Notes under the pieces: generated by a model | The model's database searches: none | The model's input: only the letters and a program-made list of their open reading frames with translations | Told to the model about the DNA's origin: nothing | Part shown: in pieces, positions 2,727-28,522 of the stretch | Position numbering within the stretch: the stretch's first letter is position 1 | Layout: each line of letters begins with the position of its first letter | Made by a program: the position numbers and the translations under genes | Source: a virus | DNA: 28,844 nt | Strand: one strand, 5' to 3' | Virus record (IMG/VR): IMGVR_UViG_3300042504_002086 | Location: 1 to 28,844 of that record

Positions 2727-4151
2727 CTAGAGAACCTCGGCGCGCACGTCGCCGGAGTCAGCCTCGGCCGTCAAGATCACGCACTCGCGCTTGCGGGCGT
2801 GCTCGGCGATGTCCACGCGGTTCGCGGGATCGAGGCCCTCCCACGCCTCCTGAGCGATCACAACGAGCTTCACGCGCCCTTCGACCGCGGGCATGGCGTC
2901 GAGCGCGATGTCGATGGCGAGCTTCCAGCGTTCGCCGTGGCTCAGCTTGCCGAACCGCTCGACCTTCGCGCCGCGCTGGTAGACGAGCCGGCCCTCGGCG
3001 ATCGTGAGGCCCGCCGGCATCGCGCGCGCGAGCATCGACTGGAGCACCTCGTCGCACTTCTCGGCCGCGTCGCGCAGTCGCTTCGCTTCGAGCGTGGCGG
3101 CATCCTTCGCGGCGGCGTGCTTGTCGGCCTTCTTGCGCGCGGCGACTCGCTGCGTGAGAGCCTGTGCGCCTTCCAGCGTCGCGCGTGCGGCGTCCACGGC
3201 GAGGGCGGCTTCGCGCACCTGATCCGGCGTCACGGTTTCGGCGGGCAGCATGATGGCGGCCCGCAGCGTGGCGATGGTGCGCTCGTGGTCCAGGGCGCGG
3301 ACGTGCGCGGCCTTCGCGGTCGCAAGCTCGGCGCGGGCCTCGGCCAACTGCGCCTCGAGGTCGGCCACGGCGCGCTCGACCAGCCGCAACGCCGCCTCGG
3401 CCTGCGCTGCCGGCGGGCCGCTGTGCTCCGCTTCGGCCTTCTCGAGCGCCTGGCGTGCCTGCTCGGCCCGGCTCGCAGCCAGCGCCTCGCCCTTCGCACG
3501 TTCGACCAGCCGGGCGTGCTCGACCGTCGCGGACGCAAGCGCCGACTGCGCGGCCCCCACGTCGGCCACGTCCTCCGGCCCGGCCCCTCCAGACAGCGCC
3601 AGAGCCGCGCTGAGCGCGCCGCCCTCGGCCTCGGCCTTCGTCTCGAACTCGCGCGCCGCCGCCTGCAGGTCGCGGCGCAGGCCCGCGGCGAGGTCGGGCA
3701 GCGTCGAGGCGCTCACGGTCTTTGCGCTGGCGGCCCGATGGTCGACGCCAACGGCGGCGGCGAAGGTCGGCAGGTCGCTCGCGGCCCCCACCATGCGACA
3801 GAGGGCCACGATGCGGGCGGAATCGGCGCGCTCGGGGTCGGCGAGGCCGGGGTCAACGAACGTCTCGACGTGCGCGCCCTCGATCATCGTGGCGACGAGC
3901 TCGCCCCCGCGTTGGGTGCGCCGGGCCGTGACGGTCAGCTTCGCGCCGAGGCCCTCGACGGTACCGCGGTCCAAGGGGCGGCGCGGCTCGAGCGCGGCAT
4001 CTTCGCCGGCCAGCGCGCGCACCGATTCGAGCGCCGTGCTCTTGCCTGCGCCGTTGGCCCCGCGCAGCACGACGACGCCCCCGCCGGCGGGGATGGGGAT
4101 GGAAAGCGCCGCAAGGGCGCCGACGTTGTTGATGGTGAGGGATTCGCTCAT
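2727..4151 (-). CDS. SMC/Rad50-like AAA ATPase of the recombination cassette
   Basis: A 474-residue protein with an N-terminal ATPase lobe carrying Walker A GANGAGKST (residues 31-39). A long Ala/Glu-rich coiled coil follows (about 190-375), and a C-terminal lobe has the ABC/SMC-type signature LSHGER near residue 403. The Walker B segment reads KLVVIAQEAWEG (about 428-439): the usual Asp before the catalytic Glu is Gln, while the Glu is kept. The layout is that of a small SbcC/RecF/SMC-like protein without a zinc hook. It starts 7 bases after recT with GAGG before the ATG, in one operon with YqaJ nuclease and RecT, so a role in DNA end processing or recombination is the natural inference. The operon ends just after it. 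The exact biochemical activity cannot be told. Confidence 0.82.
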   Translation of the reverse strand: MSESLTINNVGALAALSIPIPAGGGVVVLRGANGAGKSTALESVRALAGEDAALEPRRPLDRGTVEGLGAKLTVTARRTQRGGELVATMIEGAHVETFVDPGLADPERADSARIVALCRMVGAASDLPTFAAAVGVDHRAASAKTVSASTLPDLAAGLRRDLQAAAREFETKAEAEGGALSAALALSGGAGPEDVADVGAAQSALASATVEHARLVERAKGEALAASRAEQARQALEKAEAEHSGPPAAQAEAALRLVERAVADLEAQLAEARAELATAKAAHVRALDHERTIATLRAAIMLPAETVTPDQVREAALAVDAARATLEGAQALTQRVAARKKADKHAAAKDAATLEAKRLRDAAEKCDEVLQSMLARAMPAGLTIAEGRLVYQRGAKVERFGKLSHGERWKLAIDIALDAMPAVEGRVKLVVIAQEAWEGLDPANRVDIAEHARKRECVILTAEADSGDVRAEVL

Positions 4152-4158
4152 GGTGGCC

Positions 4159-5079
4159 TCAGAACTTGGCGGACGGGAGGGGGTTGCCGTTCTCGTCGAG
4201 CTCGACGTTCGCGGCGGGAGTTGCGGGCGCGGCCTTCGCGGCCTTCGCGGCCATGCGGTCGGCGACGGGGGTGGTCTGCTCTTCGGCCTCGGTCTGCTCG
4301 GGCAGGCGCGCGACGGCGGCCGACGTGTCGATCTCCAGCGTCTTCATGTCGATCGGCAGCACGGGCGCGTCGTCGATGGACTCGGCAAGCGAGAACTCGG
4401 CCGAGCTCGGCAGCGTCTTCATGAGGCGGCGCACGGCGGTCTTGGCGGCCATTTCGGGATACCAGTCGTGCCACGGCCCGCGCCCCTGCGCGCCCTCCTT
4501 GCTCGACATGCGAGCGCGTTCGATGTCGCGCGCCCACAAGACCTTCTCGACCTGCGTCCCGTCGCGCATCGTGGCCACGGCGTAGGCCGCGCGCACCTTG
4601 CCCGGGTCCATCGCCTCGGTCGGCTTGTGCACGAGCTTCGTCGTGAGGCCCGTTTCGTAGCTGAACTCGTCGCGCTCGTAGACGACCTCGGCGCGAATCG
4701 TGGCCACTTCGCCGGTGCGGCGCGCGAGGTCGATGTAGCCCCGGTAGCCGATGATCACTTGGCACTCGGGAACCCATTGGCCCGTGTTGCGGTCCTTCTT
4801 GTTGAACGGCACGAGGTGCGCCTGTCCGCGCGGGTCGTCGGGCTCGAGCCCAAGCTGCGCGAGCGTGAGCACCGACGAGAAGAAGGACTCTGGCGTGCAC
4901 TGGAGCAGCTTCGGCGTCTTGCGCACGCTCGTCAGAATCGTGCGCAGCATTCGGTCGGGCCGGATGTGACGCGGGAGCGCCATTCCGAGCTGCTGCTTGA
5001 AATCGTCGGTCGTCAGCAGCGCCTTGATGCTGCGCTGCGGCGGCGCTTGGGCCTGCACTGCTTGCGTGTGTTCGCTCAC
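4159..5079 (-). CDS. recT: RecT-family single-strand annealing protein
   Basis: A 306-residue protein starting (GTG) SEHTQAVQAQAPPQ. The core begins with LTTDDFKQQLGMALPRH and runs through LLQCTPESFFSSVLTLAQLG, LEPDDPRGQAHLVPF and CQVIIGYRGYIDLARRTGEV, the characteristic order of conserved blocks in RecT/RedB-type annealases. A WARDIERARMSS block and MAAKTAVRRLMKTLP follow. RecT binds single-stranded DNA made by its partner exonuclease and anneals it to homologous DNA during phage replication and repair. The C-terminal 70 residues (after about 235) are Ala/Glu-rich and probably disordered. The GTG overlaps the exonuclease stop as GTGA and has AAGGAG eight bases upstream, giving tight coupling to its nuclease partner. 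Confidence 0.95.
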   Translation of the reverse strand: MSEHTQAVQAQAPPQRSIKALLTTDDFKQQLGMALPRHIRPDRMLRTILTSVRKTPKLLQCTPESFFSSVLTLAQLGLEPDDPRGQAHLVPFNKKDRNTGQWVPECQVIIGYRGYIDLARRTGEVATIRAEVVYERDEFSYETGLTTKLVHKPTEAMDPGKVRAAYAVATMRDGTQVEKVLWARDIERARMSSKEGAQGRGPWHDWYPEMAAKTAVRRLMKTLPSSAEFSLAESIDDAPVLPIDMKTLEIDTSAAVARLPEQTEAEEQTTPVADRMAAKAAKAAPATPAANVELDENGNPLPSAKF

Positions 5080-6101
5080 TTGCCGTTCTCCTTGAATGTC
5101 AGTTGGGGGTAGGTTGTCGGTCCCACCGTGTAGCCAGCGCGGCTCACGGTCTTTCTCACGTACTCGCCCGATCCATCGGGCAAGCTGCCGTAGGTCGCGC
5201 CGTCGAGAAGCGCCTCGATGCGCGTCGCGGCCTGTTCTTCGAGCGTCTCCAAGTCCTTGACGCGCTTCTTCAGCTTGAGTCGCTCGGTGCGCCACGCCTG
5301 CAACTCCACGTGAATCGTCATCACGTCGGCGGGCAGGATGATCGTGCGCCCACTGTCGTCGGGGTGCAGCGCCGATCGCACCTTGCGCGCGTCGCCGGCC
5401 GCAGCCGAGTCCCAGTCGGGCTCGACACCTTCGCGCAGGCATCGCGCGAACGAGCCTTCGAGCGCGACAATCGAGTGAATGGGGATGCTCGGCGCGTGGG
5501 CGCTCTCGATCACCATGCGCAAGGCGTCCATGCCGATGACCGCGCCGAGGCACGCGCTCTCAACGCCAGTGACGGCGAGCGAGTGAAGCACCTGGAAGCG
5601 GTAGATGGTGGGGGCCATGCCGCTTTCGTCGCCGCCCCAGTCGCGCGCCGCGTTCATCCCCACGGTCTTGATCTCGACCACTTCGAGCGTGCCGTCGGGC
5701 CTTTCGGCGAGACCGTCCAACGTCGCCGTCATCCACGGCCACTTCGTTGAACGCACGAACGGTTGCCAGCGGCCGCGCTCGTGGACCCAGCCCTCGACCT
5801 TGCACGCGCCGAGAGCCTCCAGCCGTTGCTCGAACGCCGCGCGATCCTCGGGCGTCGCCGTGGGCAGCAAGCGGTAGCCGGTGGCGTAGGCGTACTCTTC
5901 GAGCCCGAACGCTTCGAGGGCCAGACCGCGGCGCGTGGCGAACGTGGAGACGTGCTCGCGCTCCTGCTTGCCGCTCTTTTCGGCCCACAGTCGCAGCGCC
6001 GAGCAGTATTTCGACTCGCCGCACGCTGCCGCCGCTTCACTCGCGCCGATCGAGCCGGTGCGCAGTGCGAGCCATTGCTCGCGGTTCAACTCAGCGCGCA
6101 C
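5076..6101 (-). CDS. YqaJ-family viral recombinase (exonuclease)
   Basis: A 341-residue protein of the lambda-exonuclease-like PD-(D/E)XK superfamily, YqaJ branch. Visible motifs are RTGSIGASEAAAACGESK (about residues 14-31), RRGLALEAF (58-65, with the conserved Glu), ATLDG with the metal-binding Asp near 129, and VEIK (Glu143-Ile-Lys145), followed by a Gln/His helix (YRFQVLHSLAVTG). It is expected to resect double-stranded ends to give RecT its substrate. A C-terminal coiled coil (LKKRVKDLETLEEQ) and a glycine-rich end follow. The GTG at 6101 was chosen over upstream starts because AAAGGCGG lies six bases before it. This makes an 11-base overlap with the HTH gene. Confidence 0.92.
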   Translation of the reverse strand: MRAELNREQWLALRTGSIGASEAAAACGESKYCSALRLWAEKSGKQEREHVSTFATRRGLALEAFGLEEYAYATGYRLLPTATPEDRAAFEQRLEALGACKVEGWVHERGRWQPFVRSTKWPWMTATLDGLAERPDGTLEVVEIKTVGMNAARDWGGDESGMAPTIYRFQVLHSLAVTGVESACLGAVIGMDALRMVIESAHAPSIPIHSIVALEGSFARCLREGVEPDWDSAAAGDARKVRSALHPDDSGRTIILPADVMTIHVELQAWRTERLKLKKRVKDLETLEEQAATRIEALLDGATYGSLPDGSGEYVRKTVSRAGYTVGPTTYPQLTFKENGK

Positions 6102-6363
6102 GGGCAGCCGCCTTTCGCCGTTGGTCGAGCGCGAGGCTCCACACGCGACGGTCAACGGTCGTGCCGAACAGTCGGTCGAGCTTGTCGCACACGAGCTCGC
6201 CGGGGATCTTGCCGCGGTAGTCGGAGAGCAAGTTGTTGAGCGACGCGATGCCGATGCCGGCGCGCACGCACGCCTCCTCGCGGCGCAGCTTGAGGCGTTT
6301 CAACTCGTCGGCGACGTGGCGGGCCAGTGCGGACCTGGGGCGTTTCGTGGTCTTGCGTTTCAT
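6091..6363 (-). CDS. Small helix-turn-helix DNA-binding protein
   Basis: A 90-residue basic protein (MKRKTTKRPRSALARHV...). The region LKRLKLRREEACVRAGIG followed by ASLNNLLSDYRGKIPG has the helix spacing of a Cro/CI-type HTH, and PGELVCDKLDRLFGT fits the following helix. The N terminus is strongly basic. Placed directly before the exonuclease and overlapping the preceding microprotein gene as ATGA, it is a plausible regulator of this operon. It is one of two HTH proteins in the window; the other is at 8016. The target sites are unknown. Confidence 0.68.
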   Translation of the reverse strand: MKRKTTKRPRSALARHVADELKRLKLRREEACVRAGIGIASLNNLLSDYRGKIPGELVCDKLDRLFGTTVDRRVWSLALDQRRKAAARAR

Positions 6364-7289: not shown

Positions 7290-7798
7290 TTTGCGGCGCA
7301 CACATTCGCCAGCGCCTTCATGCGTCCCGAGTACGACTTGAGACCGCGAGCGTGCGAGATCGCGGCTCTATCCGACTCCATCGCCCAATAGCTGTCAGAG
7401 TCAACCCAAGAGCCGCTAGCCCTAAGCTCAATCGCGCGGCCGTGTTGGAGCTTGTAGCGCGCGCGCGCGAACTCAAGAGCAGACCGAAAGGCTTCGCCGC
7501 GAGCAACATCGCAAGCCGAGACCGTTGGGATGCCTTGCCCGTTGCGCAGCACTTCGCGGACCGCGCCCGTGCCGTGGTTTGCGCCACCGCACGAGCAATT
7601 GCAGGACGGCCCCCCCGCCCCAGTGCAACGCGAGTCGCAGGCGGCGTGTTGCTCCACGTTCCAAACCATGAAGCGTCGGACCTCGCCCATTAGTTCCATC
7701 GTGCCGCCGCACGAACCGCGCAGATCCACGGGTGCGCGCTCGGCCTCGATCGCAGCAACCGAGCAGCAGTCCGAGCAGCGATAGTAGAAGCGCTTCAT
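7274..7798 (-). CDS. Cys-rich zinc-binding-type early protein, first gene of the leftward operon
   Basis: A 174-residue protein. The first 33 residues look like a zinc ribbon (YYRCSDCCSV with Cys8, Cys11, Cys12, and a later SCGG). Residues 51-76 (Cys54, Cys58, Cys66, Cys68, Cys70, His75) form the cluster DSRCTGAGGPSCNCSCGG plus ANHG, seen in many phage and prophage proteins of unknown role. The C-terminal half is helical with Trp and Tyr residues. The ATG at 7798 has GAGGG seven bases upstream, and a TTG two codons earlier is less likely. It lies about 60 bases downstream of the predicted transcription start of the promoter at 7866-7911. Confidence 0.75.
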   Translation of the reverse strand: MKRFYYRCSDCCSVAAIEAERAPVDLRGSCGGTMELMGEVRRFMVWNVEQHAACDSRCTGAGGPSCNCSCGGANHGTGAVREVLRNGQGIPTVSACDVARGEAFRSALEFARARYKLQHGRAIELRASGSWVDSDSYWAMESDRAAISHARGLKSYSGRMKALANVCAAKAVQP

Positions 7799-7827
7799 AG
7801 TCAAACCCTCGTGTGTCGCGCCGTCCG

Positions 7828-7848
7828 GCCCCGGTCACTCGTCGGGGC
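7828..7848 (-). other. Hairpin in the leader of the leftward operon
   Basis: GCCCCG and CGGGGC form a perfect 6-base-pair stem with a 9-base loop. CGCC and GGCG outside a 5 x 5 internal loop can extend it. It lies between the predicted start of the leftward transcript (about 7859) and the ATG at 7798, so it would be in the 5' untranslated leader. It has no U-tract, so it is not a simple terminator; a role in RNA stability or regulation is a guess. Confidence 0.4.
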
Positions 7849-10877: not shown

Positions 10878-11116
10878 GCCAAACCGTACTCCGCAGCGGG
10901 CTCAAGACCGCGGCTGCGATCAGCGCATCGGCGAGCCCGCTTGCGATCGTGCCTGATGCCGTGCTGGTCAACGCGACCGCGACGTTCACGTGCAAGTTCG
11001 CCGGCGGCTCGGACGTGACGATCACGAGCGTCGCGCCTGGCGTGCTGCCGATCAGTCCATCGCACGTCACGGTCATCTCCTCCGGCACCTTGACCGCGCT
11101 GTACTTCGAGCGATGA
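10874..11116 (+). CDS. Small structural-type beta protein
   Basis: An 80-residue Ala/Val/Thr-rich protein starting MSQTVLRSGLKTAAAISA. Alternating hydrophobic and Thr/Ser residues (VNATATFTCKFAG, DVTITSVAPGVL, HVTVISSGTLTALYF) suggest a small beta-sandwich. Its last third resembles half of an Ig-like or tail-accessory domain. ATGA overlaps occur at both ends. It probably encodes a minor virion component working with the baseplate-like protein that follows. Confidence 0.58.
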   Translation: MSQTVLRSGLKTAAAISASASPLAIVPDAVLVNATATFTCKFAGGSDVTITSVAPGVLPISPSHVTVISSGTLTALYFER

Positions 11117-11508
11117 GCCCCATCGTCCCGTACGCGCACGAGTGGACGCGGCGCAAGCGTCGGGCGATTCTCCAGGGCTCTGACTTCGTTGATGTGGTGA
11201 CGTTCCCGGTCACGGGCGGCATCGCGATCAACTGGACGGGCTTCCTCGTTCGCGCGCAGTTGCGCAACGACTTCGCCGACGCGACGAACGGATTCCTCGC
11301 CGAGATCAACTGCACGATCATCGACCCGGTGGCGCGCACGGTTCGCTTCCGCATCCCGGCCGCGGTGACGCGCACGCTTCCGGCTCAGTGCTGCGCCGGG
11401 CGATGGGACGCGGAGCTCTACCGCTTCGACACCGAGGGCACCGAGACCGACACCGCGCGCTTCGTTCAGGGCCGCTGGGAACTTTCGCAAGAGGTCACAC
11501 GAGCATGA
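11113..11508 (+). CDS. Baseplate/tail accessory protein (BppU N-terminal-like)
   Basis: A 131-residue protein starting MSPIVPYAHEWTRRKRRA. The order of elements (LQGSDFVDVVTFPV, then INWTGFLVRAQLRNDFAD, then a second beta strand set ending WDAELYRFDTEG) matches the pattern of the small domain that heads phage upper-baseplate proteins, in which a W-T-G-(F/Y)-x-x-(R)-x-Q-(I/L)-R strand is typical. Such proteins anchor receptor-binding proteins to the tail. It sits directly upstream of a 652-residue protein that could be the attached fibre. The assignment is by pattern, without sequence comparison. Confidence 0.5.
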   Translation: MSPIVPYAHEWTRRKRRAILQGSDFVDVVTFPVTGGIAINWTGFLVRAQLRNDFADATNGFLAEINCTIIDPVARTVRFRIPAAVTRTLPAQCCAGRWDAELYRFDTEGTETDTARFVQGRWELSQEVTRA

Positions 11509-13463
11509 GCGGTCCCGTTTCGCAGTCCGAGGTCTACGGCGGCACGAGCACGAGCGAGCAGGAGGCGTTGCTCGCGTCCGCGAACCGCGTGAACATGAGC
11601 GTCCCCGACGTGAACGACCCGCGCCCGGTGGTGCTCGCGTCGGGCACAGCGAACGTGGTGTTCTTCGGGGGCAACACGCGCCTCGCGCCCTTCAACGGGA
11701 CTGCGGACACGGTCACGCGCGGGAGCACGACGTACGCGGGCAGCGGCGGGCCGGTGGGCTTGCGGCTGGGCAACACGAACGCCGATGACGTTGGGCCTGC
11801 ATACCAGGGGTTCATCACGGCGTACAACCTCAGCGGATCGCACACGGGCAATCGGCAGATGCGCGTTTCGCTGCGCGGATCTGGCGGCAGCGGAACCGCG
11901 GCGGAGATTAACGCCACGCGCCAGCGCATCACGCTTGCCGAAGACGTGGAGTACCGCGTGATCGTGTGGCCGCACACGCAGGCGATCGCGTCGGGCGGGA
12001 AGGCGTTGCCTGCGCCCGAGGATTTGGCCGGGTGCTTCATCTACCGCGTGAACGCGACGGACACGACGCACGCCGAGATCAACTACTACGGCGGTCGAAA
12101 CGCGGCGGGTACGGCGAACGACGTGAACAACGAGTCGCCGTTCATCCCGCTCGACCTTGTCTCGTCGCCCACGCTCGCGGGGTACTCGACGTTCGTTGAG
12201 ACGCCTGCGGCTGGCGACCTCGTGTTCATCGTGGACTACGCCGACGGCGTGTACATGCTCACGGACCAGCGCGGCGACGCGCACGAGCTGACGTACACGG
12301 GCACGCGCGGGGCCGCTGGCTCACGAGGCATCTGGTGGCCGTACGTGAGCCTCCAGAGCGCGGGCGGGCTGTGCAACGCGCCGCAGCTCGTGTCGATCGA
12401 CGCGCCGTTCCCGAGCGCGCGCAGCAACACGGAGCAGAACTGGTACCTGACGCCCTCGGTCACGATCCCGCCGGGCACGTGGACGAACGGGCAAACCGTG
12501 ACGTTCCGCGAGACGGGGAACCTCTCGTGGGGCGCGGCAACGCTCGGCATCGAGCTGCTGATGTTCTTCTGCAACGCCGAGAAGAACGGCTGGGATCCCT
12601 GGGCGCACGAGTCTGCAGGCTGGAACGCGAGCGTTGCGCACTGGTTCGAGAAAGGCCCGTACCAAGCGTTCACGGGCGCGACCTACACCGAGAGCACCAA
12701 GACGCTCACGAAGGCGGGCAGCGGGCTCGGCGACTTGGGCGCGGCGTGTTTGTGGGTGACGGGAGGCACTGGCGCAACCATCACGCCGGTGCTGATCGAC
12801 TTGGACAACAGCAGCGGCGACGACCTCGTGCTGCTCACGTCGATCGGCGCTGGGGCGAACGGACAGACGAACATCTCGGGCTTCGTGGGCGGCATCGCCA
12901 CCACGGTCAAGGACGAGACGTGGATCAGCGGCAAGCTCAACAACGACGGCGCGGTCGGCCCCGTGCTGATCCTGCAATCCGATCCAGTGTCGGGCGCGGG
13001 CGCGGTCAACTTCTCGCTCGAGGTCAAGATCACGCACATCTCGCAACCGCTGGGCGACGGCGCGACGGGCACGCACACGTTCAACGTCGAGGCGACCTTC
13101 ACCATCGGCGGCGGTGGCGCGACGCACACGGGCACCGCGGGCTCGGCCTACGTGAACCGCACGTTCCGCTCGTGCTCGCACAGTGTTGCGCGCGACATCG
13201 TGAACCTGTTCACGGAGCACCTGGGCATTACGGTTCTGATGCGCGCGGTCGAAGGCTCGTCGGGCACGGGCGACATCAACATTCCCGGCGTCCACGGCTG
13301 GTATCCGCGCTCGCCCTACAACCCCAAGAACGGCATGGGCTGGCCGCTGCGCTTCAACTCGTCGAACGTGTACCAGACGATCGCGACGGCGAGCACTGAG
13401 AACGCCGTGCTGCTTCGCCCGCGCGAGTGGGAGTTCATCTACAACGGGTCGCAGAACAAGTAA
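11505..13463 (+). CDS. Large structural protein, candidate tail fibre or spike
   Basis: A 652-residue protein starting MSGPVSQSEVYGGTSTSE. AGAGGT-like sequence (AAGAGGT) lies about ten bases before the ATG, which overlaps the preceding stop. The composition is typical of phage fibre and adhesin proteins: rich in Gly, Thr, Ser, Ala and Asn, poor in Lys and Cys, with repeated short beta strands throughout. The C-terminal 150 residues (from KITHISQPLGDGATGTHTF) include a THTG-rich beta region and then GDINIPGVHGWYPRSPYN. No catalytic motif was recognised, and I cannot name a family. With the baseplate-like gene before and a hydrolase after, a receptor-binding or surface-contact role is the best inference. 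Confidence 0.6.
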   Translation: MSGPVSQSEVYGGTSTSEQEALLASANRVNMSVPDVNDPRPVVLASGTANVVFFGGNTRLAPFNGTADTVTRGSTTYAGSGGPVGLRLGNTNADDVGPAYQGFITAYNLSGSHTGNRQMRVSLRGSGGSGTAAEINATRQRITLAEDVEYRVIVWPHTQAIASGGKALPAPEDLAGCFIYRVNATDTTHAEINYYGGRNAAGTANDVNNESPFIPLDLVSSPTLAGYSTFVETPAAGDLVFIVDYADGVYMLTDQRGDAHELTYTGTRGAAGSRGIWWPYVSLQSAGGLCNAPQLVSIDAPFPSARSNTEQNWYLTPSVTIPPGTWTNGQTVTFRETGNLSWGAATLGIELLMFFCNAEKNGWDPWAHESAGWNASVAHWFEKGPYQAFTGATYTESTKTLTKAGSGLGDLGAACLWVTGGTGATITPVLIDLDNSSGDDLVLLTSIGAGANGQTNISGFVGGIATTVKDETWISGKLNNDGAVGPVLILQSDPVSGAGAVNFSLEVKITHISQPLGDGATGTHTFNVEATFTIGGGGATHTGTAGSAYVNRTFRSCSHSVARDIVNLFTEHLGITVLMRAVEGSSGTGDINIPGVHGWYPRSPYNPKNGMGWPLRFNSSNVYQTIATASTENAVLLRPREWEFIYNGSQNK

Positions 13464-14689
13464 TGGTCTACACACCTGGCCCCCCGGCGTTCACCTTCAC
13501 GCGCGCAACGAGCGACGCGCCCGGCGCAATCACGGCGACTGGGCCGAATCGCCGCGTGTTCTGGTCTGGCGGCATGGCGGGCCAGTGCTCGATCGCGTGT
13601 TGGCGTCCAAGCGCGAGCTTCACTGGCGCGGGCTGGGTGCTGCACGTGCGCGGCGGGCTGGGCTTCAATCCCGGCGAGCGCGGCGCGTACGACGCGAGCG
13701 CGTTCGACGACTTCCTCGAACACTTCATCGCGCGCGGCTACGTCGTGTTCTCGATCGACTACCCGGGCAACGCGAGCAACCTCTCGGGCACCGCGCCCAT
13801 GAACGACCTGCGCCCGCTGGCCATGTGGCCGGATGCGGTGTTCTGGGTGGGGCGCTGCATCCAGGAGATCAAGGACAACGCGGACTCGACGACTACGCTG
13901 GGCGCGACGCTGCTCGGCGCGGGCAACTCGATTAACCCGAACTTCGGCGTGTACCTGGGCAACTCGTGGGGCGGCACGATCGGGCTGATGCTCGCGTGCA
14001 TGCCCGACTCGCTGATGGCGCGCTTCGCCTCGCCGTACGTCGGGCGCGCAGGCAACGTCCCGCGCAGCTCGCACCGCATGAAGGTCGTGGCGACGAACGA
14101 GGCGCAGACCGACTTGGAGCAGTTCGACATTGAGCCGCTCACGCCATCGCAGAAGCCGGGCTATTTGCTCGGCGAGATCTACATGAGCGATCGCGCACAG
14201 TGGTTGCACCGCGTTGACTCGCGCGACAAGTGGAGCACGACGCCGAGCGCCGAGAAGCGCATGAACCCGTGGCGGATGCTCAAGCGCAACTATCCCGAGA
14301 CGGCCGACGTGTTGTTCATGTGTCGCTGGCCTGCAGGTCTCGTGAACTCAGGCAACAGCACGACGCCGCCCAACCAAGTGATCCCCGAGGAAGCGAACAT
14401 CACGCCCGACGACTTCGTTCCGGGCCGCTTGCCGACTGCGGCGCTGCGCACTGCGGGCAAGGCGTGGCGCGATCCGCACAACCCGTTCCAAGCGCGTGCG
14501 TGGCGCGATGCGCTGCTGTCCTACGGGTCGAGTGCGGGCGCGTTGATCCGCAAGAGCGAAGTGCGCTGGGGCGTCAACTCGAGCTCTGGCGCGTTTGCCA
14601 ATCCTGGCGGCGCTCGCCCGCTCATGAAGCCGTGGGCCGAGCAAGTGTTCAACGCGGCGGTCGCACACGCGGGGTATCCGAATGGCTGA
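13463..14689 (+). CDS. Alpha/beta hydrolase (esterase-like) encoded among tail genes
   Basis: A 408-residue protein. Residues of about 58-100 (GWVLHVRGGLGFNPG, then FDDFLEHFIARGYVVFSIDY) follow the order strand, oxyanion-loop glycines, helix, strand seen in esterase and dienelactone-hydrolase-like alpha/beta hydrolases. Residues 165-170 form the nucleophile elbow YLGNSWGG with Ser168. Asp337 in WRDPHNPFQARAWRDAL sits in the position and context of the usual acid residue, and His402 near the C terminus could complete a triad (inference). No signal peptide is seen. The ATG overlaps the stop of the putative fibre gene by one base (TAATG), so it is translated with the fibre. It may remove ester or acyl groups from a host surface polysaccharide. 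A lipase or deacetylase role is equally open. Confidence 0.72.
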   Translation: MVYTPGPPAFTFTRATSDAPGAITATGPNRRVFWSGGMAGQCSIACWRPSASFTGAGWVLHVRGGLGFNPGERGAYDASAFDDFLEHFIARGYVVFSIDYPGNASNLSGTAPMNDLRPLAMWPDAVFWVGRCIQEIKDNADSTTTLGATLLGAGNSINPNFGVYLGNSWGGTIGLMLACMPDSLMARFASPYVGRAGNVPRSSHRMKVVATNEAQTDLEQFDIEPLTPSQKPGYLLGEIYMSDRAQWLHRVDSRDKWSTTPSAEKRMNPWRMLKRNYPETADVLFMCRWPAGLVNSGNSTTPPNQVIPEEANITPDDFVPGRLPTAALRTAGKAWRDPHNPFQARAWRDALLSYGSSAGALIRKSEVRWGVNSSSGAFANPGGARPLMKPWAEQVFNAAVAHAGYPNG

Positions 14690-15161
14690 GCTGACCGACT
14701 GCACGACGTACTACTGGCGCGAGATGTTCTTGCGCATGCTGTTCTTCAACGAGCGCCCGCCGTGGGAGGAGTCCGGCTACCAGTGGACGCCGACGGAGTT
14801 CCGGCTCAACTTGCACAAGACGGCGGACCCGGGCGAAGGCGGATCGTTCAGCACGAATCAGGCGGACTTTGCGGGCTACGCTGGCCCCGTCGCCGTCCCG
14901 CGCAACACTGCTTCGTGGACGCTGGCCGGTGGCGGAACGGCCAACGCGCGAGTGAGCAACGCCGTGGTGGTCGGCTTCGGAACGGCGACGGCGGTGCAGA
15001 CGATCCACGCGCTATCGATCGCGATTCGTGAGGGCACGACAAACCACGGCATCCTGCGCGACGCATTCAGCGGAACGCCGCCCGCGTCTCCGACGTTCGA
15101 CACGGCGGCGGGCAGCTTCGATTCACTTCAGGTTGGCGCTTTCGAGTTCAGGTTCCGCTGA
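14682..15161 (+). CDS. Small tail-module structural protein
   Basis: A 159-residue protein starting MAELTDCTTYYWREMFLRML. The first third is rich in aromatic residues (YYWREMFLRMLFFNERPPW). The rest is beta-rich with small residues (WTLAGGGTANARVSNAVVVG) and ends FDSLQVGAFEFRFR. The ending, with strands after a Pro/Ser-rich turn and a final RF-R, resembles that of the next gene (AQNLRFRAL), so the two may share a C-terminal fold. The start overlaps the hydrolase stop by eight bases. Function unknown; a virion role is inferred from context. Confidence 0.6.
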   Translation: MAELTDCTTYYWREMFLRMLFFNERPPWEESGYQWTPTEFRLNLHKTADPGEGGSFSTNQADFAGYAGPVAVPRNTASWTLAGGGTANARVSNAVVVGFGTATAVQTIHALSIAIREGTTNHGILRDAFSGTPPASPTFDTAAGSFDSLQVGAFEFRFR

Positions 15162-15742
15162 TGGCAACTTTCGCGGCTGCGTTCAGTTCGTTCGAGGAGT
15201 CGCTCTGCAGGTACCTCGCGTATGGCGGAACGAGCGGGTACACGTCGGGCCTGCCGGGCATGGTGACCGCGCCGAACATCGAGGCGAGTAAGGCGTACAT
15301 CCGCCTGCTCAAGTCGGACGTGCGCTCCACGATTCCCGCCTACCCCACGCCGTTCACCACCGATGCCTTCGGTGTGCGCGGAGTGGGCGAGCCGACAATT
15401 GCCGAGTGGGGCACTGGCACCTACAGCGTTGGCGCTACGGCGCGCCGGCTGGTCAGCGCGTCGCTTGGACAACTCGAAGCGGCCGACATCGGTAGCGGCA
15501 ACTGGTGCGTGCGGACAAAAACCGGCGTGACGCTGACGTTCGCCGCCCCCGGAGGCTCGGACGCGGGGTGCACCATCACGCACGCGGTTCTCTGCCTGCC
15601 CCGCTTCAACACGGCCACGAGTCTCGTTGAGCTCTACGCGCTCGCCATTGCGGCCTTCGACTCAAGCCTCGACGCGCAGCCTTCGGGGACGGACATCACG
15701 GTGCCAGCGACCGCGCAGAATCTGCGCTTCCGAGCCCTCTAG
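15161..15742 (+). CDS. Small tail-module structural protein
   Basis: A 193-residue protein starting MATFAAAFSSFEESLCRYLA from an ATG that overlaps the preceding stop by one base (TGATG). It contains LPGMVTAPNIEASKAYIRLL, then FTTDAFGVRGVG and a beta-rich second half ending TAQNLRFRAL. The FTTDAFGV segment is close to FTSDAFGV at the start of the next gene, which hints at shared module origin. No known domain. Its place between the hydrolase and the terminase suggests a minor virion protein. Confidence 0.6.
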   Translation: MATFAAAFSSFEESLCRYLAYGGTSGYTSGLPGMVTAPNIEASKAYIRLLKSDVRSTIPAYPTPFTTDAFGVRGVGEPTIAEWGTGTYSVGATARRLVSASLGQLEAADIGSGNWCVRTKTGVTLTFAAPGGSDAGCTITHAVLCLPRFNTATSLVELYALAIAAFDSSLDAQPSGTDITVPATAQNLRFRAL

Positions 15743-16035
15743 TGCCGACATTCACCTCAGACGCCTTCGGTGTTTGCCAGTTCGTTGTGGCGTCCCGCTT
15801 CGTGCAGGCGACGCCCGCGAGCACGACAAGCAACGCGTTTGGCGCGTGCCAGTTCGAGGTTTCATCGACGTTCACGCAGACCGTCGCGCCAGTCGCCCCG
15901 CCCCCCAGCGGCGGCGGCACGACTCCCCCCGTGGACCCCGGCGCAGGCGTCATCCCGACTGTGCAGGCCGGCATCCCTGACGGCCCGTTCCGCGGTCGAG
16001 GCGCGAAACCGAGGGTGACCGGGAGAGGCGGCTGA
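15742..16035 (+). CDS. Repeat-containing structural protein with Pro/Gly-rich tail
   Basis: A 97-residue protein from a GTG overlapping the preceding TAG by one base. Residues 5-20 (TSDAFGVCQFVVASRF) and about 28-45 (TSNAFGACQFEVSSTF) form two tandem copies of a motif S-(D/N)-A-F-G-x-C-Q-F-x-V-x-S-x-F. A Pro/Gly-rich linker (VAPVAPPPSGGGTTPPVDPG) and a basic end (RGRGAKPRVTGRGG) follow. A short beta-hairpin repeat attached to a flexible linker fits a minor tail or head-surface protein. It ends one base into the terminase start (TGATG). Confidence 0.6.
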   Translation: MPTFTSDAFGVCQFVVASRFVQATPASTTSNAFGACQFEVSSTFTQTVAPVAPPPSGGGTTPPVDPGAGVIPTVQAGIPDGPFRGRGAKPRVTGRGG

Positions 16036-23393: not shown

Positions 23394-24143
23394 ATGGTCC
23401 TCACCCTCAAGCGCTGCTACGAAGCGATCAATCACAAGCTGGGCGTGGACGACGACGAGCCGCTCGATCGGCTGAGCATCGTGGACGCGGCGGGGACGAT
23501 CCTCTACGCGCACCCGTGGCGCTGGCTCGAAGCGCGGCGCTGGGCGCTGACGATCCCGGCGAACACCGACAAGCTCTGCCTGCCGGCCGACATGGCGCAA
23601 CTGAACGACGTTGCGGCCGCGGATGCGAGCGGGCTGCGCGTGGTCTACTCGCGCGACTACGGCGACGTCGTGCGCACCCGGGCGCAGTACGGCAGCACGA
23701 GCGACGGCTACTCGATCGTCCTCGCGCCGTACACCGACCTCACGGATGCGGGTGAAGTGCGGCCGCACCTTGCCTTCTGGCCCACCCACACCGCGCCGCG
23801 AGCGAACGCACTGCTCGCCTTCGGGTCGATGAAGTGGGTCAACATGGTTGACCGCGAGTGCAACCCGACCACGAACGTCCCGCTCCCCACGCACCTGCCG
23901 CTGCTGGAGACGCTGTTCCTCGAGCTCGTGCGCGCCTACGCGGCCGGCTGGTCTAACGACGGGCGCACCGACGTGCAGGCCGAGATCGACCGCATCCAGG
24001 CTGGCCCGGTGTGGCAGATGGCCGTCAACGCCGACATGCGCGCCTTCCAGTACATGGAGCGGCCTCGCAATACGAGCGTGCAAATGGCGCGCGGGATCAT
24101 GAACGACTACTACGGCGGCGACCCCGTGGTGACGCTCCAGTGA
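23394..24143 (+). CDS. Head-tail connector (neck/adaptor) protein
   Basis: A 249-residue protein starting MVLTLKRCYEAINHKLGVDD with AGGAG five bases before the ATG. The pattern of an N-terminal helical part followed by a mixed domain (WRWLEARRWALTIPANTDKL, then RVVYSRDYGDVVRTRAQYGS) and a helical C terminus with ETLFLELVRAYAAGWSNDG fits adaptor or tail-tube A proteins, which extend the portal ring. It overlaps the next gene (tail hub) by four bases. The assignment is by position, size and composition. Confidence 0.68.
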   Translation: MVLTLKRCYEAINHKLGVDDDEPLDRLSIVDAAGTILYAHPWRWLEARRWALTIPANTDKLCLPADMAQLNDVAAADASGLRVVYSRDYGDVVRTRAQYGSTSDGYSIVLAPYTDLTDAGEVRPHLAFWPTHTAPRANALLAFGSMKWVNMVDRECNPTTNVPLPTHLPLLETLFLELVRAYAAGWSNDGRTDVQAEIDRIQAGPVWQMAVNADMRAFQYMERPRNTSVQMARGIMNDYYGGDPVVTLQ

Positions 24144-27100
24144 ACATCCGCCTTGACTGGCCCTCGGGCGGGCGTGACGACTCGATGCCGGGGCCGGACC
24201 AGGCGCGAGGCACGACCCCCGAGTCCCTCAACGTCCTCACGCGCAACCCGCGCACGGGGCGCTACGGGGGCGGCTCGCGCGAGGGCCTGAGCGCGTTCTG
24301 CTCTGCGGCGCTCGGGGCGACCGGCGTGCGCGCGATGGCCGACTGCGTGGTGGACACGCGCACGAGCAACTACGACGAACTGGCGACGCCGGTGGAGTTG
24401 TGGCAAGGCGGCGCGCGCGAGACGCGTGCGGTGCGCGTGGACGCGGACGGGAACAGCTACGCGCTCGAAGGCGGGACGCACGTGGTCGTGCGCAACTCGC
24501 AAGGCGTGGAGATCGACACGATCGTGCTCCCGGTGCAGTCGAGCGGGCAGAAGTGCTACGCGCTCGCCATCGACCCTTTGGTGCGCGCGTTCTACGTGGG
24601 CACGAGCGAAGGCGGCAGCGCGGGACGGTCGCGTCTGTGGGCCTACCAGAAGGACACGTTCTCGGGCTGGCGCATTGTGTGGGAGATCGAGCCCGGCGCG
24701 TTCGTGGCGAAGCTCGCGGTCCACGCGGGGCTCTTGTACGCGGGCCTCGACGACACGGTGCGCGGGCGGTCGTACGTCGTGCGTTACGAGAACATCAGCA
24801 CGCTCGCGCGCGAACTGTCGCGGTCGCAGGTGCCTTCGCCGGTGAGCGGGCTGTCGGTCAACGCGAGCGGGCGCGTGGCGGTGTGCTCGACGCTCAACTC
24901 CAAGCGCGGGTTCGATCCTCGCTTCCCCAACGCGGGCCAGCGCCTCGACGACTCGTTCCGCTCGTGGTGGCTCAACAACTTGGGCTCGTGGGACACGCGC
25001 AAGTGGTGCGTGTTCGACCCCGCGGAGCTTGACCTCGACACGGGCGACCAAGTGTTCGAGTTCTTCGACAGCGAGGGGTCCGAGCGCCGTCTGGTGACGA
25101 CGGGCGAGAGCGTCACGGTGATTGAGCGCCAGGGTCGATTCAGCGGCCAGCCGAGCAACAACGACACGCTGGTGATCGCGCGCCGCGATGGGGGCGCGAG
25201 CGAGACGTGGACGTTCAAGTCAAGCGCGACGGCGGCGTACGAGGTGGCCATTGGCGCGAGCGCGACGCTCACGATCGCCAACCTGCGCGCGATCATCAAC
25301 AACGGCATCTTGAACGTCTCGGCGGGTAGCGCGCTCGTGTTCATGGACGACACGGATCGCGTGCGCGCGCTCATCGGGTCGCCGACTGAGCCGCAGCCCG
25401 AGCTGACCATCACGATCACGTCGGCCACGTTCCGCTTCACGCCTCAGGGCACGAGCAGTCCTGCGACCACGGGGATGCTGCGCGCGGGCCGCGTGGTCAC
25501 CACGACCGCGCCCAAGTTCCGCGCGGAGGGCATGAGCGGTCGCCCCGTCATGGTGTTTGACGGCAAGAGCACGCTGCTCGCATCGCCCGCGAACCCGACG
25601 ATCGACGCGAACGCCAGCGAGATCATGACCGCGCTGATCCCCGGCTTCGGTGCTGCGGGCGCGCTGGCGAGTAGTGCGCGCTGGGCCGTGTTCGTGGCGT
25701 GCCGTCCTGAGCCCGCTGCGGCTGGCAGCACGCTGCTCTCTCAGCGCTTCGTGGACGCATCGAACAACCAGTTCACGCGCGCGATCTGCTCGAACATGAG
25801 CACGGCGGGCGCGTTCTCTGCGGACACGCTGGCCGTTGTGGACCGCGACACCACGACCACGCGCTACCACGTTGCGACGCCGAGCGGGTCCAAGTGGTCG
25901 CTGATCTCGTGGGTGTCGAATCCGCAGACCACAGGAAGCGCGTACGAGATCTACTTCAACGGCGAGCCCATGCTCAACGGAGCGGGGTCACCAGTTCACA
26001 CGGGCACCGCCGCCGCGAGCGATTCGCCGTTCCCCACGCGCATCGGGCAAACCTCGTTCTTCCCCGCGTCCAACTTCTCGCCCTTCGACAGCTTTTGGAG
26101 CGGCGAGGTCGGCTTGATCGTGGCGATCCAGCGCTCGGGCACGGACGTAATCACGACCGCCGAGCGTCAACTCGTGGAGGGCGCAATCGCGTGGTACTAC
26201 GGCGAGCAAGCGAAGCTTCCCACGTCGCACCCGTACTACTCCACGCCGCCCCCGCCTGCGGACGGCACGGTCGCGGACTTCCACCGATCGCGGCAAGCGC
26301 TGAGCCCGTTCGGCAACGTGACGGTGCTTGACGGCGACACGCAGGACATCGCGTACATCGTCGCCAGCCCCGAGACGGGCGTGGGCACGACCAGCGCGCT
26401 CGGCGGCGGGATCGCGTGGCGCACGGACGGCAACCTTGTGAGCCTGGGGCCGATCGCCAGCGCGACTGGCACGTTCGAGAGCGTGCGCCTGATCTTCGAC
26501 CGGGGCGACGACTTCTCGCTCACGGGCGCGTGGACGTACAGCATCGGGGGCGCGTCCCCGGTGGCGAACGATGCGTTCTCGTTCGCGGGCCTTGAGATGG
26601 CCGTGGACGAGTTCGACAACGCCTACGTTCCGTGGCACGCCGAGCGCGCGACGATCGCCAACGCGCCGCCGCAGTACGTGGTTCTCGACAAGGACGGGGT
26701 GGTCTTGCTCCAGCCGACCGCGCCGCGTGCGCAGGCGTGCTACTCGATCGCGCTCCAGCAACCTCGGCCCGCGTACGGTGACGAGACGATCACGCGCGCG
26801 GAGTCGATCGTGCTCGGCCTGCGCCGCGAGAACACGGTCACGCTCACCATGCTGTCGATCCCGTCAGCGGGCACGACGGTCACGTTCAACGGTACGGTGG
26901 GAACGACGGCGACGCTGGAGACCTACACGTTCGTCGCCACGCCCACGAATCCGCGTGAGGTGGACATCGGCACGACGGTCGATGCGTGCCTCACGAACCT
27001 CAAGGCCGCGATCAACTTGGAGACGGGCTCGGGCACGCTGTACGCGGCGAGCACCACGCGCTCCGAGCTTGTGTCTGCGGTCGGGCTCACGACGAGCACG

Positions 27101-28522
27101 CTCACGATCGTCGCGCGCAACCAGAACGCGACCACGGCGTCCTCGGGTGCGGCGTCGATCACGTTCAGCTCCAGCGACTTCAAGGTCGGCACGGGCGGGA
27201 TCGCGCGCTCTCAACTCGTGGCGCTCGTGGCCGAGACGGGCGAGGGGCGCTTGCGTCAGCGCGTGGCGGTCGTCGATCGCAACATCGTGGTGTTCGGCAC
27301 GGACTACCAGCAAGTGACCTCGGGCGGCTCGCAGGTGACCGCGGCGGCGGCGCGCTACTGGCACTCGCAGGCGTTGGGGCGCTTCGTGTTCACCACGGAC
27401 GGCGTGCGCTCGTTCAAGACCGACATCCGCACGCGCGAGACCAGCTTGTTCACGGCGACCACGGCGGGCGAGGTGCCGGTCGCGGCCCCCATCTTTGAGG
27501 CGTATCGCGCTCGCCTCGTGGCGCTTGCCGGCTCGCGCGCGTTCTACTCGGCCACGGGCAACCCGTTCGACTGGGACTACGCGCCCGAGGTCGTCTCGCC
27601 CGCGCAGGCGTGGAACTCAGGGCTCCCGCCGAGCTTCGACGTCGACGACGTGCTCAACGGGTTCGCGCCGATCACGGACGACTTCGCCATCGTGTTCGGC
27701 GATCACTCGATCTGGCGGCTCACGGGCGATCCCGGTCCCGGTGGGAACGGCGTGTACGACGTGCTGACGCGCTCAATGGGCGGGGCGTTCGGGCGCGCAT
27801 GGTGCGTGGGTCCGAGCGGCGAGCTGTACTTCTGGACGAACGAGGGCGAGCTTGCCGTCGTGCGCGGCGGGCAACAGATCGAGGTCTTGAGCGGCGCGCG
27901 GATGCGTGAGGTGTTCCGCTCCGTGGACCTGTCGAAGAACTTCATCCGCATGGCGTGGAACTACCGCGCCGACCGGCTCGACATCTTCGCGTGTCCGTAC
28001 GGCACCGAGGCGGGCTCAAGCCGCTGGTTCTCGTGGGAGCGCAGTGTCGACGCGCTGCAGGAGCACGAGTTTGCGGGGCGCATAGTGACCGACGCGATCA
28101 CGGTGGACGGCGACAAGCCTTCGGATGCGGCGGTTGTGATCGGATTCGGCGACGGCCAAGTGCGCAAGCTGGACGCCGCGGCGACGAAGGACGTTGACGT
28201 GCCGATCTACTCGAAGTGCCGATTCGGACCGCTCACGTGGGACGATGCGCGGCTCGACATGATGCTGACCGAGCTTCAAGTGGCCTTGGACGCGCGCGGC
28301 GATGGGTGCATCGTCGAGGTCTACTCCAGCGACACGGCGCGCGACTTCGGCAAGGCTCGCCGCCAGTTCAAGATTGCCCCAGGCGTCTCCGGTGCGAAGC
28401 TGCCTCGCGTGCGGGGGAACTACGTGTGGCTCGTGCTGCGCGGCGTGGGCGGCTGGGGCTTTGAATTCATGCTCGCGGTGATCGAGGCGGGCGGCCAGCG
28501 ACGCGCTGGGAGGCTTGCGTGA
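24140..28522 (+). CDS. 1,460-residue tail tube/hub-like protein with inserted ConA-like domain
   Basis: A very long frame from a GTG overlapping the adaptor stop (GTGA). The N-terminal ~300 residues (RLDWPSGGRDDSMPGPDQ, then LNVLTRNPRTGRYGG) and C-terminal ~440 (APITDDFAIVFGDHSIWRL through YFWTNEGELAVVRGGQQIE and KNFIRMAWNYRADRLDIF) look like a podovirus tail-tube B or P22 gp10-type hub made of beta-propeller-like repeats. Between them lie two similar beta modules (about 340-435 and 897-1019, each with an ANLRAIIN or TNLKAAIN helix) and a concanavalin-A/LamG-like domain (about 510-700) ending in TTAERQLVEGAIAWYYGEQA and LPTSHPY. The hub would gate DNA; the insert probably binds carbohydrate. 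No protease or lyase motif was recognised. Confidence 0.75.
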   Translation: MNIRLDWPSGGRDDSMPGPDQARGTTPESLNVLTRNPRTGRYGGGSREGLSAFCSAALGATGVRAMADCVVDTRTSNYDELATPVELWQGGARETRAVRVDADGNSYALEGGTHVVVRNSQGVEIDTIVLPVQSSGQKCYALAIDPLVRAFYVGTSEGGSAGRSRLWAYQKDTFSGWRIVWEIEPGAFVAKLAVHAGLLYAGLDDTVRGRSYVVRYENISTLARELSRSQVPSPVSGLSVNASGRVAVCSTLNSKRGFDPRFPNAGQRLDDSFRSWWLNNLGSWDTRKWCVFDPAELDLDTGDQVFEFFDSEGSERRLVTTGESVTVIERQGRFSGQPSNNDTLVIARRDGGASETWTFKSSATAAYEVAIGASATLTIANLRAIINNGILNVSAGSALVFMDDTDRVRALIGSPTEPQPELTITITSATFRFTPQGTSSPATTGMLRAGRVVTTTAPKFRAEGMSGRPVMVFDGKSTLLASPANPTIDANASEIMTALIPGFGAAGALASSARWAVFVACRPEPAAAGSTLLSQRFVDASNNQFTRAICSNMSTAGAFSADTLAVVDRDTTTTRYHVATPSGSKWSLISWVSNPQTTGSAYEIYFNGEPMLNGAGSPVHTGTAAASDSPFPTRIGQTSFFPASNFSPFDSFWSGEVGLIVAIQRSGTDVITTAERQLVEGAIAWYYGEQAKLPTSHPYYSTPPPPADGTVADFHRSRQALSPFGNVTVLDGDTQDIAYIVASPETGVGTTSALGGGIAWRTDGNLVSLGPIASATGTFESVRLIFDRGDDFSLTGAWTYSIGGASPVANDAFSFAGLEMAVDEFDNAYVPWHAERATIANAPPQYVVLDKDGVVLLQPTAPRAQACYSIALQQPRPAYGDETITRAESIVLGLRRENTVTLTMLSIPSAGTTVTFNGTVGTTATLETYTFVATPTNPREVDIGTTVDACLTNLKAAINLETGSGTLYAASTTRSELVSAVGLTTSTLTIVARNQNATTASSGAASITFSSSDFKVGTGGIARSQLVALVAETGEGRLRQRVAVVDRNIVVFGTDYQQVTSGGSQVTAAAARYWHSQALGRFVFTTDGVRSFKTDIRTRETSLFTATTAGEVPVAAPIFEAYRARLVALAGSRAFYSATGNPFDWDYAPEVVSPAQAWNSGLPPSFDVDDVLNGFAPITDDFAIVFGDHSIWRLTGDPGPGGNGVYDVLTRSMGGAFGRAWCVGPSGELYFWTNEGELAVVRGGQQIEVLSGARMREVFRSVDLSKNFIRMAWNYRADRLDIFACPYGTEAGSSRWFSWERSVDALQEHEFAGRIVTDAITVDGDKPSDAAVVIGFGDGQVRKLDAAATKDVDVPIYSKCRFGPLTWDDARLDMMLTELQVALDARGDGCIVEVYSSDTARDFGKARRQFKIAPGVSGAKLPRVRGNYVWLVLRGVGGWGFEFMLAVIEAGGQRRAGRLA

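Follow-up and report, generated by a model that had tools for sequence, protein, structure and literature searches.

A fibre-like gene and an overlapping gene for a predicted alpha/beta hydrolase are exchanged as one unit between phages

Gene organization and genomic context

The window analysed here is a whole IMG/VR virus record of 28,844 bases, in which a gene for a predicted hydrolase directly follows a fibre-like gene (Table 1). The open frame of the hydrolase and its Ser168 were present as described in a first-pass annotation of this DNA. Its designation as full-length held in that the ORF is complete, but the C-terminal half was without a match to any known family. The same annotation had the hydrolase translated one base after the fibre candidate; the two genes are indeed adjacent and linked, but the junction is a one-base overlap (TAATG) rather than a one-base gap. 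The likeliest start of the fibre-like ORF, the ATG at 11505, overlaps the stop of the small gene before it, and, as read from the sequence, the small gene, fibre, hydrolase, and next gene constitute one tightly packed operon. The start-stop overlap between fibre and hydrolase was kept in every relative examined, as TAATG in L012, L010, and L028 and as an ATGA-type overlap in L013 and L014. The hydrolase has neither a signal peptide nor a long hydrophobic stretch.

Table 1. Features of the window; positions are those of the 28,844-base record.
Feature	Position	Strand	Description
Recombination module	2727-6155	-	YqaJ/RecE-like exonuclease, RecT-like annealing protein, SMC/AAA-like protein
Small gene before fibre	11113-11508	+	phrog_1084 (E=3e-12)
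Fibre-like ORF	11505-13463	+	652 aa; co-exchanged with hydrolase; no known family
Exchange unit	11533-14700	+	86-89% DNA identity to L012; background elsewhere in the aligned region
TAATG junction	13461-13465	+	fibre TAA 13461-13463, hydrolase ATG 13463-13465, one base in common
Hydrolase ORF	13463-14689	+	408 aa; Ser168 in GNSWGG
Gene after hydrolase	14682-15161	+	overlaps hydrolase end by 8 bases
Small ORF	15742-16035		before terminase; two similar segments, SDAFGVCQFVVAS.F / SNAFGACQFEVSS.F
1460-aa protein	24140-28522		no family match in the window

Because no family match was found for the fibre-like protein, it was labelled as a fibre by its gene context alone. The small gene before it showed weak similarity to "L-shaped tail fiber protein assembly" families, and its counterpart in L028 resembles LtfC (PF23926). 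In relatives, the gene directly after the hydrolase is Gp80-like (PF23140, E=1.7e-14), which recalls fibre I of podophage GP4, whereas neither the hydrolase nor the fibre of the window had a match in the phage record collection. The window gene at the same place shares only a short local similarity with the Gp80-like gene of L028. A weak T7 gp14-like protein in the record of L013 weakly indicates a short-tailed phage.

Several observations were made elsewhere in these records. The counterpart of the 1460-aa protein in the L013 record contains a Laminin_G_3 lectin-like domain (E=6.9e-8), and the window protein may be a second structural protein with a surface-binding function. At the far end of the L013 record (L054, 13595-16579, minus strand), a 994-aa protein had a DarB-like antirestriction match that was too weak to name it (E=0.0037). 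A longer contig identical to the window (L052) encodes, at 7396-7830 on the minus strand, an ORF with a lipobox-like start (LVSGC), and this ORF may encode a spanin or other lipoprotein, which hints at a two-membrane host. No lysis gene was recognized beside the hydrolase or in the further parts of the longer contigs.

Relatives and exchange of the fibre–hydrolase pair

All relatives are virus records derived from metagenomes. Two further records were identical to the window, and relatives of the hydrolase were present at 88-89% identity in L010, L011, and L012, at about 60% in L013 and L014, and at 32-35% in L028, a record reached via the backbone terminase; L026 carries a partial copy of the L013/L014 type. 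No convincing relative was found in the phage, plasmid, and bacterial genome collections, the plasmid collection yielding a single stretch at E=0.4, in an Acinetobacter alpha/beta hydrolase. Between the window and L012, dN/dS was about 0.19 for both the hydrolase (0.077/0.396) and the fibre (0.084/0.438), indicating that both genes are maintained under purifying selection.

The fibre and hydrolase genes form one exchange unit between phages. Outside the high-identity block shared by the window and L012, aligned DNA to the right is at background (about 0.40-0.51), identity to the left drops to background through the small gene, and the terminases and portals of the two phages share only about 25% protein identity. 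L012 and L013, for their part, are 97.8% identical over 10 kb from near the last 13 hydrolase codons onward, and L028 shares 96-97% identity with each of them across more than 7 kb, starting at the next gene. Despite these near-identical right-hand backbones, hydrolase and fibre proteins share 63 and 51% identity, respectively, between L012 and L013, and 39 and 23% between L012 and L028. One backbone carries three cassette types and one cassette type occurs on two backbones, with exchange boundaries that coincide with gene edges. The link to a fibre-type gene proposed in the first-pass annotation is upheld, and is stronger than could be seen then, because both genes recombine between phages as a unit. 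As in receptor-binding cassettes, divergent alleles lie on near-identical backbones and the same allele lies on unrelated ones; this pattern is that of a host-recognition cassette and suggests that the pair helps to decide to which bacterial surface the phage can attach.

The DNA left of the fibre is likewise variable among the relatives, and the fibre–hydrolase pair is therefore not the sole variable part. The left early region (about 2.6-7.6 kb in L012, L013, and L014; 1-2.3 kb in L028) is built as a mosaic in which short conserved blocks are interspersed with replaced DNA, although these phages otherwise have near-identical structural genes. The recombination module on the minus strand of the window could contribute to the cassette swaps.

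Fold of the hydrolase

The window protein alone gave only sub-threshold family matches. Its N-terminal half matched Abhydrolase_6 at 0.0056 and scored 14.4 bits against BD-FAE (PF20434); the N-terminal half of the L013 protein reached 23.2 bits (E=5.6e-5) and the L028 protein 25.7 bits (E=9.8e-6), the top score of any member and below the curated cut-off of 26.8. The L028 relative also matched the phrog_3341 esterase (E=1.4e-4). The family profile aligned to the Acinetobacter hydrolase over residues 42-171, with GNSWGG placed on GTSFGG.

AlphaFold2 models were of low confidence, with a pLDDT of 30 for the window protein with three distinct relatives and of 34 in a second run with L028 first, because too few sequences were available. 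No meaningful match came from a fold search with the model of the window protein. The PDB matches listed for the L028 model are alpha/beta hydrolases and for the most part esterases (best E=5e-6, probability 1.00), including a CE7 acetyl xylan esterase, brefeldin A esterase, Est2, and a ferulic acid esterase; these alignments covered about half of the model at low TM-scores. Against the viral fold library, the L028-first model gave weak matches only. The structure prediction that the first-pass annotation had proposed as a check therefore failed to return the fold from the window model but found esterases with the N-terminal half of the L028 model. In the low-confidence models the Ser168 elbow (G-x-S-x-G) comes after a predicted strand at 163-166, the N-terminal order of alpha/beta hydrolases. 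On the basis of the profile matches and the L028 model, we regard an alpha/beta-hydrolase fold as established for the N-terminal half, and the first-pass fold assignment stands for that part of the protein. It does not extend to the C-terminal half, which matched no known family and which an alignment to Escherichia coli YjfP and Aes did not place. The protein thus resembles BD-FAE, CE7 acetyl xylan esterase, and HSL-type esterases in the N-terminal order of strands and helices and in its nucleophile elbow, but differs from BD-FAE and other alpha/beta-hydrolase esterases in that its family lies below the Pfam cut-off, lacks a His in the usual slot, and has an unrecognized C-terminal half.

Sequence inspection spoke against assignment to the SGNH hydrolases: Ser168 has a mid-protein position rather than one in an N-terminal GDS(L) block, D-P-H corresponds to D-x-H and not D-x-x-H, and no SGNH family was matched.

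Active site

Ser168 is invariant across lineages, including the relatives at 32-35% identity. The only invariant His residues are His204 and His339, the latter within an invariant D-P-H and the only conserved His of the C-terminal half. Asp317 and Asp337 are both invariant, and either may be the acid after strand 7; by our reading, the stretch from D337 (DPHNPFQARAWRDAL) resembles an esterase acid loop and the helix that follows it. In the triad originally named (Ser168, Asp337, and His402), the Ser is confirmed as invariant and Asp337 is invariant and plausible, but His402 is not conserved. It lies within the predicted last helix (389-403), and a role as catalytic base is not supported by the most divergent homologue, that of L028, which has no His after its D-P-H and none near its C-terminus. 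Between the predicted last strand (364-371) and the last helix, none of the proteins has a His, so that the catalytic His expected after the last core strand of an alpha/beta hydrolase is missing from every lineage, given a strand placed by a weak model. The oxyanion-type motif varies, with HGG in L028, RGG in the window, and KGG in L013. As judged from the alignment and the models, the triad is unusual or incomplete: either His339 would be the base, with Asp317 or Asp337 as the acid, or the protein has lost the ability to cut. That both Ser168 and D-P-H are invariant favours catalytic activity.

Proposed role and alternative explanations

We propose, with a probability of roughly 0.6, that the hydrolase is a stand-alone protein of alpha/beta-hydrolase fold, most likely an active serine esterase, that it is translated from one message together with the fibre-like protein, and that both act in host adsorption. 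Fibre and hydrolase would be translated in a coupled manner, as the overlap seen in the sequence suggests, and the hydrolase would become part of the fibre or adsorption complex or be attached to it, which is consistent with the absence of a signal peptide or long hydrophobic stretch and with co-inheritance. Ser168 would then attack an ester, probably an acyl group on a host surface polysaccharide, with the help of an unusual base for which His339 is the best candidate by its invariance and with Asp337 or Asp317 as the acid. By analogy with SGNH esterase tailspikes such as G7C gp63.1, removal of the acyl group may lead to specific and then firm attachment. The observed swapping of fibre and enzyme together between phages may be explained by receptors that differ between hosts. 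Virion location, esterase activity, an ester or acylated-polysaccharide substrate, and a role in host range are all properties that we infer for the hydrolase.

An unlikely but not negligible alternative is that the protein is a pseudo-enzyme, a scaffold without a base that serves in receptor binding or fibre capping and binds acylated sugars without cutting them, while still being swapped with the fibre as a specificity module. The missing His between the last strand and last helix, the variable HGG motif, and the long C-terminal half without a family match would all fit; however, a dead site should drift, and Ser168 in G-x-S-W-G and the D-P-H remain invariant down to 32-35% identity. It is improbable that the protein is a lysis enzyme comparable to mycobacteriophage lysin B, a host-envelope esterase acting at the end of infection. 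Lysin B is a phage-encoded alpha/beta-hydrolase esterase (PMC7022511), the fold class predicted here as well, and mycobacteriophages encode relatives of this phage's RecT at 42% identity, although the scores of E. coli phages are slightly higher. Against this, searches of the PDB with the protein and with profiles, at E values of up to 10, matched no lysin B chain and gave only weak matches to other proteins, no lysis gene was recognized next to the hydrolase, the hydrolase shares an overlapping operon with the fibre and is exchanged with it, and the lipoprotein-like ORF in the longer contig that is identical to the window gives a hint of a host with two membranes.

Bacteria commonly carry alpha/beta hydrolases as accessory genes, and the gene might be cargo for host metabolism, lysogenic conversion, or superinfection exclusion that came to lie beside the fibre by chance. 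We consider this hardly probable, as each cassette type that was recovered contains the hydrolase, which in all cases overlaps the fibre and moves with it, with no separate promoter gap in front. Since every record derives from a metagenome, the exchange pattern could also reflect chimeric assembly. That is very improbable: the window-type cassette was found on the second backbone in three records (L010, L011, and L012) that differ from each other by 1.5-1.7%, the L013 type was seen again in L014 and L026, and the boundaries coincide with the edges of genes; that the cassettes recur in several records that are not identical makes a chimera unlikely. A separate virion-borne esterase that works with its fibre on the host surface is the reading that we consider most likely.

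Comparison with known phage surface enzymes and significance

Removal of O-acetyl groups during adsorption by SGNH esterase tailspikes has been described for Possum gp66 (PMC9569702) and, as cited in that article, for G7C gp63.1. Esterase activity was measured for the tailspikes of Moo19 and B2 (PMC11654681), and Klebsiella prophages encode active SGNH receptor-binding proteins (RBPs) as well as SGNH proteins adjacent to RBPs (PMC13123978). A structure screen that included alpha/beta-hydrolase folds returned only beta-helix, propeller, TIM-barrel, and toroid hits, with esterases under-represented because candidates had been pre-selected for polysaccharide-degrading activity (PMC11326577). The first-pass annotation set the hydrolase apart from the usual tail enzymes, which are of the beta-helix or SGNH kind, in agreement with published work (PMC11326577, PMC13123978, PMC11823257). 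The pair described here shares with the G7C gp63.1-type SGNH deacetylases of N4-like phages, and also with Possum gp66, the Moo19 and B2 tailspikes, and the Klebsiella prophage RBPs, an esterase-type protein at an exchangeable tail-fibre locus. It also shares an acylated surface polysaccharide as the expected target (PMC9569702, PMC11654681, PMC13123978). In those systems, however, the SGNH domains mostly reside inside the fibre or spike, whereas the window encodes a predicted alpha/beta-hydrolase fold in a separate, coupled gene. Unlike lysin B, to which it has no detectable sequence match, the window hydrolase is linked to and exchanged with a fibre gene. With respect to the open-access literature, the concept of a tail-associated esterase is known; new here are the other fold and the separate, co-exchanged gene. 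More tentatively, and with the odds leaning against it, the pair may represent a class of two-gene adsorption cassettes in which specificity is carried by a fibre together with a separate partner protein of alpha/beta-hydrolase fold that has either relocated its catalytic base to the acid loop (D-P-H) or lost it, the unit jumping as a whole between otherwise unrelated phages.

A natural experiment is provided by these phages, which combine nearly identical structural genes with three different versions of the fibre–hydrolase pair. If the base proves to be unusual or missing, the family would bear on the reuse of the alpha/beta-hydrolase fold for binding. Most of the phage surface enzymes known so far are beta-helix depolymerases or SGNH esterases, and a co-swapped pair of a fibre and an esterase-fold protein would add a class to be considered in host-range prediction.
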